From contig CAINUX010000130.1 in assembly GCA_903853895.1 (NCBI GenBank), positions 1-64,000 of the forward strand: a stretch of 64,000 nucleotides of DNA, in the 5' to 3' direction. A program made the translations under genes and the position numbers. The notes under the pieces are model-generated. The model was not told where the DNA came from, did not search any database, and saw only the letters and a program-made list of their open reading frames with translations. Position 1 is the first letter of the stretch. Each line of letters opens with the position of its first letter. Below are positions 23,503 to 31,580 of the stretch, one piece after another. This DNA is from an uncultured beta proteobacterium. Lineage in GTDB: Bacteria; Pseudomonadota; Gammaproteobacteria; Burkholderiales; Burkholderiaceae_C.

Positions 23503-24390
23503 ATGTACGAGAACAAGCGCCTGGGGTTTCTCTTTGTGCTGCCCTTTGTACTGGGCGTTCTGTTGTTCAAGTTGTTTCCGTTCGTGATGAGTTTTGCGCT
23601 GAGCTTCACACAGTACGACCTGATCGATCCGCCGCAGTATGTGGGGCTGGAGAACTACCGCGAACTGGCGCTGGACGATCCCTTGTTTCGCAAATCGCTG
23701 GGGGTCACCCTGTTGTTTGCCGTCTTGGCCGTACCGCTGCGCGTTGGCTTTGCGCTGTTCATTGCCCATGTGCTTAACTTTCGATTACGCGGCATCAACT
23801 TCTTTCGCGCTGCCTTCTACTTGCCATCCATTTTGGGTGGCTCGATTGCCGTGGCGGTGCTGTGGCGTTTCCTATTCGCAAAGCACGGCCTGGTCAATCT
23901 TCTGATGACCAATGTTGGCCTGGAACCCGTTGCCTGGCTGGCCGACGAGCACTACTCCATGTGGACCATCGTGCTGTTGTTCACCTGGCAGTTTGGCTCG
24001 GCCATGGTCATTTTCTTGGCAGCACTGCAAAACGTACCGGTTTCGCTGTATGAGGCGGCTGAATGTGACGGTGCCAGCAAACTGCAACAGTTCTGGAGCA
24101 TCACCGTGCCGCTGATCACGCCGGTCATATTTTTCAACATGATCATGCAGATGGTGCACGCCTTTCAGGAGTTCAACGGGCCGTACATGATCACCGAGGG
24201 CGGGCCGTTGAGCTCGACCTATGTGCTGGCGTTGTACATCTATGACCAGAGTTTCCGATTCTTCAATCTGGGATATGGCGCAGCCCTTTCGTGGGTGCTG
24301 TTTGCACTGGTAGCAAGCCTGAGCGCGATCAGTTTCTGGAGCTCCAAGTACTGGGTGTTCTACGCGGGCGAGAAAGAGCAGCGCAGATGA
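23503..24390 (+). CDS. togM: sugar ABC transporter permease (TogM-like)
   Basis: The 295-residue inner-membrane protein has six hydrophobic spans and the MalF-type EAA loop EAAECDGASKLQQFWSITVPLITPVI that contacts the ATPase. Next to togN, togA, a binding-protein gene and oligogalacturonate lyase it is probably half of an oligogalacturonide importer like TogMNAB of Dickeya. The role is inferred from neighbours; the family is clear. The stop overlaps the togN start in ATGA. Confidence 0.82.
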   Translation: MYENKRLGFLFVLPFVLGVLLFKLFPFVMSFALSFTQYDLIDPPQYVGLENYRELALDDPLFRKSLGVTLLFAVLAVPLRVGFALFIAHVLNFRLRGINFFRAAFYLPSILGGSIAVAVLWRFLFAKHGLVNLLMTNVGLEPVAWLADEHYSMWTIVLLFTWQFGSAMVIFLAALQNVPVSLYEAAECDGASKLQQFWSITVPLITPVIFFNMIMQMVHAFQEFNGPYMITEGGPLSSTYVLALYIYDQSFRFFNLGYGAALSWVLFALVASLSAISFWSSKYWVFYAGEKEQRR

Positions 24391-25250
24391 GCGCGGAAAA
24401 CATGCGCTCGCCCACCAGTGGAGGTGGACATGCCTGGGTGCGCTACGTGGCGCTGGTATTGGTGGCTCTGGTCATGTTGTACCCGCTGTTCTGGCTGATC
24501 GGCGCCTCGTTCAAAAGCAACAGCGAGATCTTTACCGAAGTCGGTTTCTGGCCCCAGCGTTTTGACTTCAGCGCCTATGCCAAGGGCTGGAAGACCAGCA
24601 CCGAATACACCTTTGCGACCTACTTTCTCAACAGCTTCCTGATTACCATTCCACGCATCGTTGTCACCGTCATCTCCTGCGTGCTGGTGGCCTACGCCTT
24701 TGCGCGGTTCGAGTTCTGGGGCAAGAAAATACTGTTCTCCATCATGGTGGGAACCATGATGTTGCCGCTGATCGTGCTGCGTTTGCCGCAGTACCTGGTG
24801 TTTCGCGAGCTGGGTTGGCTGGATTCCTATCTGCCGCTGATCGTGCCCTCCGCGTTTGCCACAGACACTTTCTTCATCTTCATGCTCGTGCAGTTTCTCA
24901 AGGGCATCCCAAGGGACATGGAAGAGGCAGCGCAGATCGACGGCTGCAACGCCTTGCAGTTGCTGTGGTACATCATCGTGCCGCTGCTCAAGCCGGCCAT
25001 TGTCTCGGTGATCGTGTTCCAGTTCATCTGGACCATGAACGACTTCATGGGCCCGCTGATCTACCTGGCGTCGGTCGAGAAATACCCGGTGTCGCTGGCA
25101 TTAAAGATGAGCATTGGTGCGACCGAAGAGGTGGAGTGGGCCAACGTGATTGCCATTTCGGTGGTGGCGCTGATTCCTTCGGTGGCTGTCTTTTTTGCCG
25201 CGCAGAAGCACTTCATCGAAGGCGCAACTTCTAGTGGCGTGAAGGGGTAG
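24387..25250 (+). CDS. togN: sugar ABC transporter permease (TogN-like)
   Basis: The 287-residue inner-membrane protein is a MalG-type permease with six spans and the EAA loop EEAAQIDGCNALQLLWYIIVPLLKPA. The start at 24387 is set by the ATGA overlap with togM; the open frame begins earlier inside togM. It is followed by an unusual 357-bp gap before the ATPase gene, although all other joints in this operon are tight. Confidence 0.82.
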   Translation: MSAENMRSPTSGGGHAWVRYVALVLVALVMLYPLFWLIGASFKSNSEIFTEVGFWPQRFDFSAYAKGWKTSTEYTFATYFLNSFLITIPRIVVTVISCVLVAYAFARFEFWGKKILFSIMVGTMMLPLIVLRLPQYLVFRELGWLDSYLPLIVPSAFATDTFFIFMLVQFLKGIPRDMEEAAQIDGCNALQLLWYIIVPLLKPAIVSVIVFQFIWTMNDFMGPLIYLASVEKYPVSLALKMSIGATEEVEWANVIAISVVALIPSVAVFFAAQKHFIEGATSSGVKG

Positions 25251-25285
25251 CAATGGTTCGTGTGCCTGCTATTTTTGATTGCTCC

Positions 25286-25373
25286 GGCGTGGTCGGTGTA
25301 TGCCATTTGCTTCGTGTCCCCCGCGCTTCGCGCTCCTCCTTGACCTACGCAAAATGCATACACCGACCACGCC
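25286..25373 (-). repeat. nested palindromic element, copy 1 (togN-togA gap)
   Basis: An 18-bp perfect inverted repeat (25286-25303 with 25356-25373) encloses a further TTTGC/GCAAA match and a small GCGC-TTC-GCGC hairpin. Read on the minus strand, its core has AGGTCAAGGAGGAG, the hairpin, then GGGGGACACGAAGCAAA. The same core occurs in opposite orientation in copy 2, 61 bp away, but with different arms. Confidence 0.8.
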
Positions 25374-25434
25374 TGCGGACGTGTGCCTTTCAAGGTATTC
25401 AACTTCCCCTCTCGCATTCCGATTCTCCAAGCGC

Positions 25435-25522
25435 CAGGCAAGGGGCGGGTGTTTTGCGGAGGTCAAGGAGGAGGGCCCTCACGGCCCGGGGGACACGGAG
25501 CAAAACATCCGCACCTTGCCTG
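25435..25522 (+). repeat. nested palindromic element, copy 2 (togN-togA gap)
   Basis: A 23-bp inverted repeat (25435-25457 with 25500-25522, 21 pairs and two mispairs, one of them G-T) encloses AGGTCAAGGAGGAG, a GGGCC/GGCCC hairpin and GGGGGACACGGAGC. The core matches copy 1; the arms do not, yet each pair of arms is self-complementary. The rest of the 25251-25607 gap holds no gene that I can support. Confidence 0.8.
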
Positions 25523-25607
25523 ATGCGGGCGAACGAGATGTCTGCTGCAGGCGAACAAAGAATCTTTGGCATGACATGAAGAGACAAGAAACACGGAGAC
25601 AAATACA

Positions 25608-26741
25608 GTGGCACGCCTGCAGCTAAAAAAGATTGAAAAGGTCTACCCAAATGGCTTCAAGGCCGTGCATGGCGTGGACCTGGAAGTGCGCGACGGCGAG
25701 TTCATGGTGTTCGTGGGTCCGTCCGGTTGCGCCAAAAGCACCTTGCTGCGCATGATTGCGGGCCTTGAGACCATCACCGGCGGCGAGCTGCACATCGGAG
25801 GGAAGCTGGTGAACCAATTGGCGCCCAAACAGCGTGGGATTGCCATGGTGTTCCAGAACTACGCGCTGTATCCCCACATGACGGTGTTTGAAAACCTGGC
25901 ATTCGGCTTGAAGCTGGCGGGCACCCCCAAGGCTGAAGTCACGCAACGTGTGCGCCATGCCGCGGGACTGTTGGAGATGGAGCACCTGCTGGAGCGCTAC
26001 CCCAAGCAACTGAGTGGCGGCCAAGCCCAGCGCGTTGCAGTGGGGCGTGCGATTGTGAAGAAGCCTGAAGTGTTTCTGTTTGACGAACCCCTGTCCAATC
26101 TGGATGCCAAGCTGCGCGCGGCCATGCGGGTGCGACTGACCGAGCTGCACCGCACGCTGCGCGAAACGGGTCAACCGGCCACGGTGGTCTATGTGACGCA
26201 TGACCAAGTCGAAGCCATGACCATGGGCGAGCGCATCTGTGTACTCAAGGATGGGGTGATCCAACAGGTGGACACGCCCACCGCGCTGTACGACCGGCCG
26301 GCCAATGCCTTCGTAGCGAGCTTCATTGGCTCACCGGAGATGAACATTGTCAACGCGCAATTGAAACCAGGCGACAACGGCGTCACGGTCGAACTCGGCG
26401 GACAGGTGTTGCGCCTTCCAGCAAGCAGGGCCGCGCAGCTCAACAGTGGCAGCGGCGCCGTGCAATTTGGTTTGCGCCCCGAGCATGTGTCCGCCGGACC
26501 ACGCCCCCAGGGCGACAGCGTCCCTGTGGAGGGAACGCTGCGTTTTGCCGAGCATATGGGCAGCGAGGTGTTTGTGCACTTCACGGTAGGCGACAACGCC
26601 ATGAGCGCGCGCGTGCCCGCTGACGAGCTACATGGCTTGCAGGATAAGGCCCGTGGTGCCGCCCACGTGTTCCATTTCCAGATGCAACGTGCCCACCTGT
26701 TTGAGGCACAGAGTGGCGTGAGCCTGTTGCGGTGCCCCTGA
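25608..26741 (+). CDS. togA: sugar ABC transporter ATPase (UgpC/MsmX type, TogA-like)
   Basis: The 377-residue ATPase has Walker A GPSGCAKST, Q-loop FQNYALYPHMTV, signature LSGGQAQR, Walker B VFLFDEPLSNLDA, the switch His in VTHDQ, and a C-terminal TOBE-type domain (about 240-370). It powers sugar import through the TogMN-like permeases. In Walker A the residue before the Lys is Ala instead of the usual Gly; the codon is GCC. The start is GTG with GGAG about ten bases upstream. The stop overlaps the ATG of the binding-protein gene (TGATG). Confidence 0.87.
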   Translation: MARLQLKKIEKVYPNGFKAVHGVDLEVRDGEFMVFVGPSGCAKSTLLRMIAGLETITGGELHIGGKLVNQLAPKQRGIAMVFQNYALYPHMTVFENLAFGLKLAGTPKAEVTQRVRHAAGLLEMEHLLERYPKQLSGGQAQRVAVGRAIVKKPEVFLFDEPLSNLDAKLRAAMRVRLTELHRTLRETGQPATVVYVTHDQVEAMTMGERICVLKDGVIQQVDTPTALYDRPANAFVASFIGSPEMNIVNAQLKPGDNGVTVELGGQVLRLPASRAAQLNSGSGAVQFGLRPEHVSAGPRPQGDSVPVEGTLRFAEHMGSEVFVHFTVGDNAMSARVPADELHGLQDKARGAAHVFHFQMQRAHLFEAQSGVSLLRCP

Positions 26742-28035: not shown

Positions 28036-29199
28036 ATGAGCAAATCTACCCAACGCCAACTGAATTTTGTAGCCAAGAGCGATCCTGATACCGGTGCGCG
28101 CGTGACAAGGCTGACACCGACGGATATCACCTGCCACCGCAACTACTTCTACCAAAAGTGCTTCACCAAAGACGGCTCCAAGCTGATCTTTGCCGGTGAG
28201 TTCGGCCCCGGAAACGCCTGGAATTACCACCTGCTGGACCTCAACAGCCAGGTCGCCACGCAACTGACCGACCAGCGTGGTGAAAACACGTTTGGTGGCT
28301 TCATGAGCCCGGATGATCAACACCTCTATTTTGTGCGTGCGGAGCGTCAACTGATTCGGCTTGCGCTGTCGGACTTGAGTGAAGAGGTGGTCTACACCGT
28401 GCCACAGGGGTGGGTGGGCTATGGCACCTGGGTGTCCAACAGCGCCTGTACCAAGATGGTGGGCATCGAGATCCATGCGGACGACTGGTTCCCGCTCTCC
28501 GACTGGAAGAAGTTCCACGACATGTACCACGCCAAACCGCGGAGTCGCCTGATCCGCATCGACCTGGCCACGGGTCAGCGCGACGTCATTCTGGAAAAAC
28601 ACGGCTGGCTGGGTCATCCGCAGTACCAGCCCTTTCATGATGACACCGTGGCGTTTTGCCATGAGGGACCGCATGACCTGGTGGATGCGCGCATGTGGTT
28701 CATCAACGAAGACGGCACGAATCTGCGTTGCGGCAAGGTGCACCTGGAAGGCGAAGCTTGTACCCACGAATTCTGGGTGCCGGATGGCTCAAGCATGATC
28801 TATGTGTCGTACCTGAAGGGTCAGCGCGACCGCTGGATTTGCGCGCTCGACCCAGTCACGCTGGAAGACAAGAGGCTGATGTCCATGCCACCTTGCTCAC
28901 ATCTCATGAGCAACTTTAACGGCACGATGTTGGTGGGCGATGGCTGTGGCTCGCCTGCCGATGTCGCTGACGCGAGTAGCCACGACATCGTGACCGATCC
29001 GTTTTTGCATGTGTTTGACCTCAAGTCAGGCACTGTGCGCGCTGTCGCACACCACGATTCGTCGTGGCGGGTACACAAAGGCAGTCGTCAGGTGACGCAC
29101 CCGCATCCCTCGTTTACACCGGACGAGAAGCAGATCCTGTTCAGTTCCGACGCAGAAGGTGAACCGGCTCTCTATCTGGCGGATGTAGGCGCGCCATGA
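28036..29199 (+). CDS. ogl: oligogalacturonate lyase (PL22)
   Basis: Ogl cleaves short, often unsaturated, oligogalacturonides in the cytosol to unsaturated monomers for KdgF and KduI. The 387-residue product lacks a signal peptide and has the beta-propeller pattern of PL22: DITCHRNYFYQKCFTKDG, HPQYQPFHDDTVAFCHEGP, ACTHEFWVPDG and a late HPHPSFTPDEKQILFSSD. It lies 5 bp after the binding-protein gene and overlaps the next gene by 4 bp. Confidence 0.93.
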   Translation: MSKSTQRQLNFVAKSDPDTGARVTRLTPTDITCHRNYFYQKCFTKDGSKLIFAGEFGPGNAWNYHLLDLNSQVATQLTDQRGENTFGGFMSPDDQHLYFVRAERQLIRLALSDLSEEVVYTVPQGWVGYGTWVSNSACTKMVGIEIHADDWFPLSDWKKFHDMYHAKPRSRLIRIDLATGQRDVILEKHGWLGHPQYQPFHDDTVAFCHEGPHDLVDARMWFINEDGTNLRCGKVHLEGEACTHEFWVPDGSSMIYVSYLKGQRDRWICALDPVTLEDKRLMSMPPCSHLMSNFNGTMLVGDGCGSPADVADASSHDIVTDPFLHVFDLKSGTVRAVAHHDSSWRVHKGSRQVTHPHPSFTPDEKQILFSSDAEGEPALYLADVGAP

Positions 29200-31580
29200 G
29201 GCTTTGGGTGTGTCTCGTGGCCTGTTTGTCATGGATTGCTGCGGCGCAAGACGCCGCACGGCCCTGGTTGACGCCAGACGTCGCCCTCGAGTACACCGTG
29301 GCAATCTACCTGGCACAGGGACCATCGCCTTGGGCACCGGTTGAACCATCTGCGCTGCGTGGGTTGCGACCTGACTTTGTGGTGGCCGCAGACGGCGGTG
29401 GCACCCACAGAAGTCTGCAAGCGGCCTTGGATGCCGCCCCTTCCGCTGGTGTTGATTCACGCCGCTTTGTCATTGGTCTGACCCCCGGAATCTACCGGGG
29501 GCAAGTGTGTTTGCAGGCTAAGGCGCCGGTGGCCCTAGTGGGACTGGGGAGCCAGCCGGCTGATGTGCGAGTGGTGGCGTCACGCTACGCGGGCGAGCGC
29601 AAGCGCCCTGGCGTGGATACGGGCAATCCCTGCATGCCCGCGGCCAGCGCGTCAACCTATGGCACGTTCAGTAGTGCAACGTTGGCGATTTTCAGTGATG
29701 ACGTGCAGGTATCGAACCTGACGATCGAAAACGATGCCATGAATGGCGTGCGTGCTGGGGTTGGCTATCCGGTCGACGCCTCCGAAGCCGGTGGCGCGCA
29801 GGCCGTGGCACTGATGACCCAGGGCGACAGAATTCAGCTCGAAGGCGTCCACCTCCTGGGGCACCAGGACACACTCTATGTGCGTGCCACACCGGGCAAG
29901 GCCGGTGATCGGGTTTACGTGCACCAGAGTCTGGTGAGCGGAGATGTGGACTTCATTTTTGGCGCAGGCACGCTGGTGATTGACGGCAGCACCATTTTGA
30001 GCAGGGCCGGACGGCGTTCACCCGGGGAGGGTGGCTACGTATTGGCACCCAGCACGGTTCCGCAGACCGCCCGGGGCATCCTGGTCAACAACAGTCGCCT
30101 TATCAGTGAAGCCGGGTTGCGTGCTGGCGCCATTGCATTGGGCCGTGCATGGGACCAGGGTATTGCCAAGGGCGCCTGGCAAAAGAGCATTTCGCCGAAT
30201 GGCCAGGCCGTGGTGCGTGACAGCGTGCTGGGAGACCACCTGGGGCCTTGGGCGGCCTCCACTGCACGACGGCCTTTCAGTGCTTCTGGTGAACAAGCAA
30301 ACCGCCTGTGGGAGTGGAACAACCACCAAGCTGGAGCGGGCAACGTTGCGGACCAGAGCCCTGACTGGAGTCGCGAGACGCTGGCGCCACATGATGGCTG
30401 GGCCGCAGCACAGGGTGGCACGCTGGGCGGCGCCGAAGCCGATGTGAAGCACACGTACACGGTGCGCAACCGCTCAGAGCTGGTCGCCGCGCTGGCGCCC
30501 GGCGCGTACCCACGCGTCGTACGGATCATTGGCCGCATCGACCTGAGCACGGATGCCAATGGGCATGCATTGGGCTACGCGGATTACCGCGACCCTGCAT
30601 TCGATCAACAGGCCTTTCTGGCGGCCTATGACCCCATCGTCTGGGGCAAGAAGCCGCCCAGCGGGCCACAGGAGGATGCGAGGAAGCGATCGGTTGGCAA
30701 GCAAGCTGCGCAAGTGGTTGTGAAGGTGCCGTCGCGCACCACGCTGGTGGGTGTGGGAGACGCCGCCGCCATCGTCAATGGCAACCTGTTTTTGGATAAG
30801 GCGGACAACGTCATCATCCGCAACATCCACTTCTCGGATGCGTATGATTACTTTCCGGCCTGGGACCCCAAAGACAACGCCAACGGTGAGTGGAACTCGG
30901 AGTACGACAACATCACGTTGCGCGCCGCCACCCATGTCTGGATCGACCATTGCACGTTTGACGACGGACCACGGCCGGACGACGTCGAACCCGTTTTGTT
31001 CGGGCGTCGGGTCCAGCACCACGACGGCTTGTTGGACATCACACAGCAGTCGAACTGGGTGACTGTTTCGTGGAATCACTTTCGCGACCACGACAAGACG
31101 AGCCTGGTGGGCGGCGGTGACAGCCAGGCTCTGGACGTCGGCAAGCTCAAGGTTACCTTCCACCACAACTGGTACGAGCGCGTCCGTGAGCGTACGCCGC
31201 GCGTGCGGTATGGCGAAGTGCATGTGTACAACAACCTGTTCGAAGGGGGGGCTGACGGCCCATACCCCTATGGCTACTCGCTGGGGATTGGCTACCAATC
31301 CAGGATCTACAGCGAACGCAACGCCTGGGTGACGCCACCGACTGTGCAGTCCAGCCAGTTGCTGCGTGTCCTCAAAGGCCATCGCTTCATCGACAACGGG
31401 TCTACCCACAATGGTTTGGCGGTGGACCTGCAGGCGGAGTTGCGTGTGGACCACCCTGCCGTGAACTGGGTGGCTGATGTGGGGTGGACGCCCAGCCTTT
31501 TTCTGGCAATGGATAGTGTGTCGGACGTGCCTGCCCGGGTTCGGGCAGGAGCCGGTGCCGGACGTGGAAAGACAAATTGA
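29196..31580 (+). CDS. pectin methylesterase-pectate lyase fusion (CE8-PL1)
   Basis: One 794-residue frame joins two pectin enzymes. After a signal peptide (about 1-17), residues 55-375 are a CE8 methylesterase with GHQDTLY (222-228, Asp225), GDVDFIFG (249-256, Asp252 as nucleophile) and LGRAWD with Arg317. A linker (about 375-415) leads to a PL1 pectate lyase (about 418-765) with VWIDHCTFDDG (581-591), VSWNHFRDHDKTSLVG and RTPRVRYGEVHVYNN (from 666, with the catalytic-type Arg). The product should remove methyl groups and then cut the exposed polygalacturonate by beta-elimination in the periplasm or outside the cell. The frame is continuous with no internal stop. Confidence 0.92.
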   Translation: MRLWVCLVACLSWIAAAQDAARPWLTPDVALEYTVAIYLAQGPSPWAPVEPSALRGLRPDFVVAADGGGTHRSLQAALDAAPSAGVDSRRFVIGLTPGIYRGQVCLQAKAPVALVGLGSQPADVRVVASRYAGERKRPGVDTGNPCMPAASASTYGTFSSATLAIFSDDVQVSNLTIENDAMNGVRAGVGYPVDASEAGGAQAVALMTQGDRIQLEGVHLLGHQDTLYVRATPGKAGDRVYVHQSLVSGDVDFIFGAGTLVIDGSTILSRAGRRSPGEGGYVLAPSTVPQTARGILVNNSRLISEAGLRAGAIALGRAWDQGIAKGAWQKSISPNGQAVVRDSVLGDHLGPWAASTARRPFSASGEQANRLWEWNNHQAGAGNVADQSPDWSRETLAPHDGWAAAQGGTLGGAEADVKHTYTVRNRSELVAALAPGAYPRVVRIIGRIDLSTDANGHALGYADYRDPAFDQQAFLAAYDPIVWGKKPPSGPQEDARKRSVGKQAAQVVVKVPSRTTLVGVGDAAAIVNGNLFLDKADNVIIRNIHFSDAYDYFPAWDPKDNANGEWNSEYDNITLRAATHVWIDHCTFDDGPRPDDVEPVLFGRRVQHHDGLLDITQQSNWVTVSWNHFRDHDKTSLVGGGDSQALDVGKLKVTFHHNWYERVRERTPRVRYGEVHVYNNLFEGGADGPYPYGYSLGIGYQSRIYSERNAWVTPPTVQSSQLLRVLKGHRFIDNGSTHNGLAVDLQAELRVDHPAVNWVADVGWTPSLFLAMDSVSDVPARVRAGAGAGRGKTN

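Follow-up and report, generated by a model that had tools for sequence, protein, structure and literature searches.

Paired palindromes in a pectin-use operon belong to a dispersed nested-hairpin repeat family of Burkholderiales that is constrained on one strand

What are two oppositely oriented palindromes doing between the permease and ATPase genes of a bacterial pectin-use operon? The question is raised by a stretch of 64,000 nucleotides from an uncultured beta proteobacterium (contig CAINUX010000130.1, positions 1 to 64,000; hereafter the window), where the open frames of the operon leave a single large gap of 357 bp, as an earlier note on this DNA had remarked, and where this gap holds two elements of 88 bp each, measured arm to arm (Table 1). 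The same note had described them as inverted nested hairpins that share a core, with outer arms unrelated in sequence yet self-complementary and with inner hairpins that differ while staying paired. All of this is indeed present: the elements lie at 25286-25373 and 25435-25522, the 18-bp arms are perfect complements and the 23-bp arms form 21 of 23 pairs, and both inner hairpins differ and pair. The palindromes are members of a dispersed family of short-hairpin repeats, and a regulator specific to this locus is unlikely. Also in the window, 29196-31580 (+) encodes a single 794-residue protein that joins pectinesterase and pectate lyase domains, its operon partners being oligogalacturonate lyase, KduI-family and short-chain dehydrogenase genes.

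Table 1. Positions of the gap, its neighbours and the parts of the two elements in the window.
Feature	Coordinates	Strand	Remarks
ABC permease gene, upstream neighbour	24291..25250	+	PF00528; start codon uncertain
Gap holding both elements	25251..25607	.	357 bp, between permease and ATPase genes
Element 1, right outer arm (own-strand reading)	25286..25303	-	18 bp, perfect complement of 25356-25373
Element 1 core: AAGGAGGAG, 10-nt apical hairpin, GGGGGACACG	25313..25341	-	
Element 1, left outer arm (own-strand reading)	25356..25373	-	pairs with 25286-25303; fold
Spacer of inverted pair	25374..25434	.	
Element 2, left outer arm	25435..25457	+	21/23 pairs with 25500-25522
Element 2 core: GGTC, AAGGAGGAG, 14-nt apical hairpin, GGGGGACACG	25461..25497	+	
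Element 2, right outer arm	25500..25522	+	23 bp, pairs with 25435-25457; fold
ABC ATPase gene, downstream neighbour	25608..26741	+	PF00005 and OB_MalK

Common to both elements, in opposite orientations, is a core of the form AGGTCAAGGAGGAG-hairpin-GGGGGACACG(A/G)AGC, which in element 1 is preceded by GGTC at 25342-25345. The predicted fold has two stems, an outer one some 25 bp long and a short one, GGU(C)/GACAC, as well as the apical hairpin and an internal loop made up wholly of purines, AAGGAGGA lying against GGGG. As single strands, elements 1 and 2 fold with z-scores of -6.95 and -5.80 on their own strands and of -7.06 and -4.81 on the opposite strands (5.6 and 5.9 kcal/mol less stable). 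The two strands of an element are thus nearly equal in folding, which by itself cannot show which strand matters. The internal loop displays AAGGAGG (25465-25471 in element 2, and likewise in other copies), a perfect Shine-Dalgarno core; in most genic copies it is read in frame as KEE. Behind the nested hairpins there is no T tail of the kind that marks an intrinsic terminator, and the two pattern matches that were obtained (0.6 expected) use parts of the outer arms. Rfam covariance models gave no match in the window, the one entry for the gap (E 3.5) being far under the gathering score.

The earlier note had suggested a genome search for the core with variable paired arms. In the genome of the source organism this search gave 81 matching pieces and, by strict reading, 49 copies, 48 of them with paired arms (matches from arm scoring were filtered from 59 to 51, and a stricter rule left the 49); a covariance model lists 60 copies. 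Beyond this genome, the exact-core pattern matches 51 of 200 genomes of the source's family, its own included, and the reversed control of the pattern matches none of the same 200. The covariance model found the element in 49 of 61 genomes of the genus, at 0 to at least 66 copies per genome with at most 66 candidates scored in each. Among the matches listed, named records belong mainly to Rhodoferax, Hydrogenophaga, Curvibacter and other Burkholderiales. Plasmids searched with element 2 gave no match, and viral contigs gave four exact-pattern stretches, two of which (L190 and L191) look like chance. A set of 215 copies used below was mostly fetched by the exact core, which makes the constancy of the core in it partly a matter of construction, and it includes chance matches in unrelated genomes (L082, L107, L161, L190, L191); in two less biased sets the core is exact in 40 of 48 own-genome copies and in 20 of 26 copies from genome G206.

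While the core is nearly constant, both stems vary yet remain paired. A covariance check of the kind that the earlier note had proposed was made on 61 aligned copies, chosen by class-1 inner sequence and a 14-nt hairpin and forming a gapless alignment of 101 columns: 95.4% of its cells pair, and 28 of its 33 pairs have changed on both sides. Covariation scores 0.589 in this alignment, whereas shuffles give 0.163 and none of 500 reaches the observed value; slid registers give at most 0.120. Covariation extends inwards, the inner pair of columns 33 and 72 having changed on both sides in 11 of the 61 copies and, by eye, GAGGT/ACACG covarying with GAAGT/ACATG between two variant classes. The arms moreover fit their own partners: in 51 own-genome copies the pairing score of a copy's own right arm averages 19.0, against 7.5 (sd 2.7) with the right arms of other copies, the own arm being unequalled in 36 of the 51 and having at most one rival as good in 44. 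In the same test no other copy matches element 1 of the window, and a single one does as well as element 2 or better. The earlier note's selected or actively generated structure is thus supported by the paired arms of 48 of 49 own-genome copies and by the strong covariation among aligned copies, and the same two results support the mobile palindrome that it had named. In L042 (1275 towards the contig end) the arms are complementary at 56 of 56 positions, possibly an assembly fold-back.

Which strand carries the constraint can be read from the mismatches in the arms. G:T mismatches outnumber A:C mismatches eightfold (346 vs 42) in 188 copies with arms, that is, the 215 copies minus 14 without flank and minus 13 of the remaining 201 without arms, and the two kinds of mismatch were penalised equally during arm fitting. 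In the sets that were not picked by the exact core the excess is 4 to 5 fold (68 vs 16 in the own genome, 43 vs 8 in G206). It is also found where the element is antisense to both neighbouring genes, with G:T and A:C at 38 and 5 in single copies and at 48 and 3 in paired ones; in genic copies on the gene's strand the asymmetry is weaker (34 vs 8). One strand, the one that reads AAGGAGGAG...GGGGGACACG, carries the constraint. Because G:T so far exceeds A:C, even where the element runs antisense to the genes on either side, the constrained form is the fold of the element's own strand, and what is constrained is that one strand, in whatever direction the genes beside it are read. This own-strand constraint, independent of neighbour transcription, is the strongest single clue to the nature of the element. 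A preference for the lagging-strand template was considered and rejected, as the 58 single copies of genome G270 have the element strand in leading sense 22 times and opposite 36 times (p 0.09).

Copies are found just downstream of genes, between the genes of operons and in frame within genes, and those in intergenic gaps may form inverted pairs. Most copies outside genes lie near a stop codon, and few stand between divergent genes (7 of the 136 for which both neighbours were called). Among the matches listed for G270, 58 of 76 copies are single, and eight of its nine close pairs, counted after opposite-strand shadows had been removed by hand, have the same minus-then-plus order as the window. 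Close neighbours in the own genome are likewise mostly inverted pairs; a same-strand pair was seen in genome G081. A simple codon-usage gene caller, some of whose calls are wrong, puts 37 members of the 215-copy set entirely within genes. Thirty-two of them have the gene's orientation and 5 are antisense to it; of the former, 25 share one frame, five of these being the chance matches named above, and 7 are in another. With paired arms required, 26 copies are on the gene's strand and 5 opposite. The main reading frame gives ...AQVKEEPAQRAGDTEQ.... For the own genome the caller places 10 of 49 copies inside genes, nine on the same strand and one opposite, the latter (L015) being a miscall just upstream of an apparent biotin carboxylase gene; for G206 it places 8 of 26, seven on the same strand and one opposite. 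Ten host proteins were tested, of which Mpl, MutL, purine-nucleoside phosphorylase, PutA and CobB score above the NCBIfam curated cut-off, DnaE2 and AddA fragments and one protein matching sensor kinases fall under it, and two have no match.

Several loci carry more than one copy. A long helicase-like gene, by eye hrpA, holds two copies in each of two genomes (L174 338-4693 and L276 649-3999), oppositely oriented in the second. Two very similar inverted pairs about 4.8 kb apart (L083 102-314 and 5133-5327) stand at both ends of one contig and surround an ABC-transporter segment. A composite insertion sequence was rejected as an explanation for widely spaced copies, since no transposase was seen by eye between them (six G270 regions, one in G281, L127, L083 and L174).

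Comparison of orthologous sites shows that the presence of the element differs between related species and that both orientations occur at one site. The earlier note would have given up its reading had the region been absent in all relatives and without effect on transcripts; the window pair is found at the same site in the Rhodoferax MAG L089, and the gap is short and without elements in the five relatives that were read (L054-L058). For mpl, 61 genomes were searched and 30 loci fetched: nine hold the element in sense orientation, one holds it reversed, eleven are short and empty, and nine others are without a core, four of them with a longer linker and five from order-level relatives. The mpl inserts measure 84-108 nt, about 28 to 36 residues. 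The lengthened linkers are those of L203-L206, and the one in L203 retains GTTTTGCC...GGCAAAAC and may be a decayed element. Reversed orthologous copies were also seen at a biotin carboxylase-like start, in dnaE2 and at the L112/L150 site.

A closer view comes from G206 against G232, G200 and G266, at flank identities of 79-98% (23 sites prepared, ten searched, seven aligned), where four kinds of event seem to be visible. One site (L283 vs L321-L323) has another element, oppositely oriented, beside which an old arm seems to remain; at a second (L328 vs L288/L327) the core is inverted inside similar arms. In putA (L319 vs L292/L318), 54 nt comprising the core and most of one arm appear to have been lost in frame. 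Between L287 and L309, with the flanks 97% and 88% identical, the arms have changed block-wise, and at L286 and L291 near-identical arms are found in three of four genomes, the fourth being without the element and missing more than the element. In L325 (G266) the inverted pair of G206/G200 (L289) looks fused: a single element combines one half of either copy, which would fit a loss of the DNA between the two cores. No target-site duplication was readable at the aligned sites of this group, where divergence of the flanks limits the reading. Between orthologous copies, in comparisons that are non-independent, one-sided changes gave 226 G:T, 18 A:C and 41 other states, and double changes between paired states were 143 of transition type and 138 of transversion type, with 58 other double changes; in the mpl group double transversions outnumber double transitions by 59 to 17. 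Many orthologous sites are retained across genera with compensatory changes in place, a pattern which looks like constraint at the site and counts against a reading by mobility.

The foremost alternative is a structured RNA that serves the host in cis, through mRNA stability, processing or attenuation, and that selection on the transcript maintains site by site. It would account for the long retention of sites with compensatory changes, for the predominance of G:T among single changes between orthologous copies (226 vs 18 A:C), for copies between operon genes and near stop codons, and for the very stable folds. However, the strand asymmetry is equally strong in copies antisense to both neighbours, copies also lie within coding regions, orthologous copies may be oppositely oriented, the window gap is without elements in five relatives, and Rfam has no match, and we regard this explanation as unlikely. 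The same evidence bears on the more specific proposal of the earlier note, a regulatory RNA or mRNA stability element for this operon. Here its interpretation stands only in part: the selected or generated structure and the mobile palindrome fare well, whereas a locus-specific RNA does not, the pair being missing from the gap in five relatives and copies occurring in both orientations and inside genes, with an asymmetry that is unchanged when they are antisense to both neighbours. Site retention with compensatory changes would also follow if the arms were kept complementary without selection, by hairpin template switching in which one arm serves as template for the other (quasi-palindrome correction). 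The near equality of double transversions and double transitions (138 vs 143, and the mpl excess) fits this process, as does the block-wise difference between the arms of L287 and L309, but template switching predicts equal numbers of G:T and A:C mismatches by core strand, where the ratio found is 4 to 8, and it leaves the constant core unexplained; we consider it improbable.

REP sequences and their REPIN pairs are short extragenic hairpins with a purine foot, present in many copies and in inverted pairs, and their stems conserve sequence beyond pairing. A system of this kind, mobilised by a RAYT (Y1 tyrosine transposase), could explain why GGAG precedes the hairpins and why inverted pairs have a mostly fixed order, and Y1_Tnp matches do occur: 13 of the 15 copy-bearing genomes examined have them, 12 with scores over the family cut-off, and the own genome has one as well. 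None of 24 Y1_Tnp loci, the own one included, is flanked by the core, however, apart from one half-core lookalike (L234), genomes G060 and G172 have exact cores without a Y1_Tnp match, and the stems of REPs are conserved in sequence as well as in pairing; we give this possibility little credence. The elements thus resemble REP/REPIN in their inverted hairpin pairs, purine foot and copy number, and differ in having no RAYT adjoining them, no conserved stem sequence, and in-frame genic copies. ERIC and MITE-type repeats are intergenic palindromes in many copies and of similar size. Unlike in MITEs, the arms here are inverted repeats whose sequence is not conserved between copies, and unlike in either type the constancy lies in the middle rather than at the ends. 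At the sites aligned, with their diverged flanks, no target duplication was readable.

With moderate confidence, we read the family to which both palindromes belong as a Burkholderiales repeat of nested-hairpin type that is non-autonomous, mobile or locally unstable, and whose working form is a single-strand hairpin. The apparent replacements and core inversions would then be events at the site. An enzyme acting in trans may recognise the folded single strand, ssDNA or RNA, via the constant loop, the purine loop being the part that is recognised and the stems a mere scaffold; because recognition would run through the loop, any stem sequence would serve provided it pairs. In-frame and near-stop positions would be insertions that selection tolerates. 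No mobilising enzyme was found, none of 24 Y1/RAYT-type loci having the core within about 1.5 kb. More tentatively, the repeat could represent a new class of mobile palindrome, in which the all-purine internal loop is the only sequence-specific part and is read by a putative single-strand-acting enzyme, the sequence-free stems need only pair, the core is invertible within kept arms, and peptides are added in frame to housekeeping proteins across Burkholderiales.

Among described repeats, the Beta-proteobacterial repeat element (BRE) of Bordetella and Polaromonas is 75-91 bp in length, is defined by over 70% similarity to a Bordetella consensus, has 4 copies in Rhodoferax ferrireducens and 29 in Polaromonas JS666, often stands in direct tandem, is mostly intergenic with some copies wholly in coding sequences, and is suspected to be mobile (Hot et al. 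2011, PMC3110155). By that description, the family reported here is similar in length (88 bp for both window elements), in its betaproteobacterial taxa and in its mostly intergenic habit with some genic copies; it differs in that mpl inserts of 84-108 nt partly exceed the BRE range, and it may differ from the direct tandems in arrangement, close neighbours in the own genome and G270 being mostly inverted pairs and a same-strand pair being seen in G081. The two are possibly, and in our view probably, the same, on a comparison of described size, taxa and habit. The account of BRE (section 14) contains no fold, covariation or strand asymmetry, and the word 'hairpin' is missing from its main text (PMC3110155). 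Nearest in behaviour, again by description, are the palindromic elements of Rickettsia, repeats of about 150 bp that lie in frame in unrelated genes and add a similar peptide (PMC10969869). The present elements share the in-frame insertion of a palindromic repeat into unrelated genes, and differ from them in being shorter, with 88 bp in the window, and in having a constant core, stems that covary and a core found either way round at a single site. The R. ferrireducens genome paper, in the part consulted, mentions CRISPR alone, and the literature, with subscription titles covered in part, yielded no account of fold, covariation or strand asymmetry for such a repeat of Burkholderiales.

If our reading is true, a logic of fixed loop and free stem, of which we found no description, would drive a common repeat that shapes intergenic space. 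The same element would add about 28 to 36 residues to hosts such as Mpl, with similar inserts in MutL and PutA. It would also become testable how a single-strand fold persists regardless of the direction of transcription, and what enzyme reads it.
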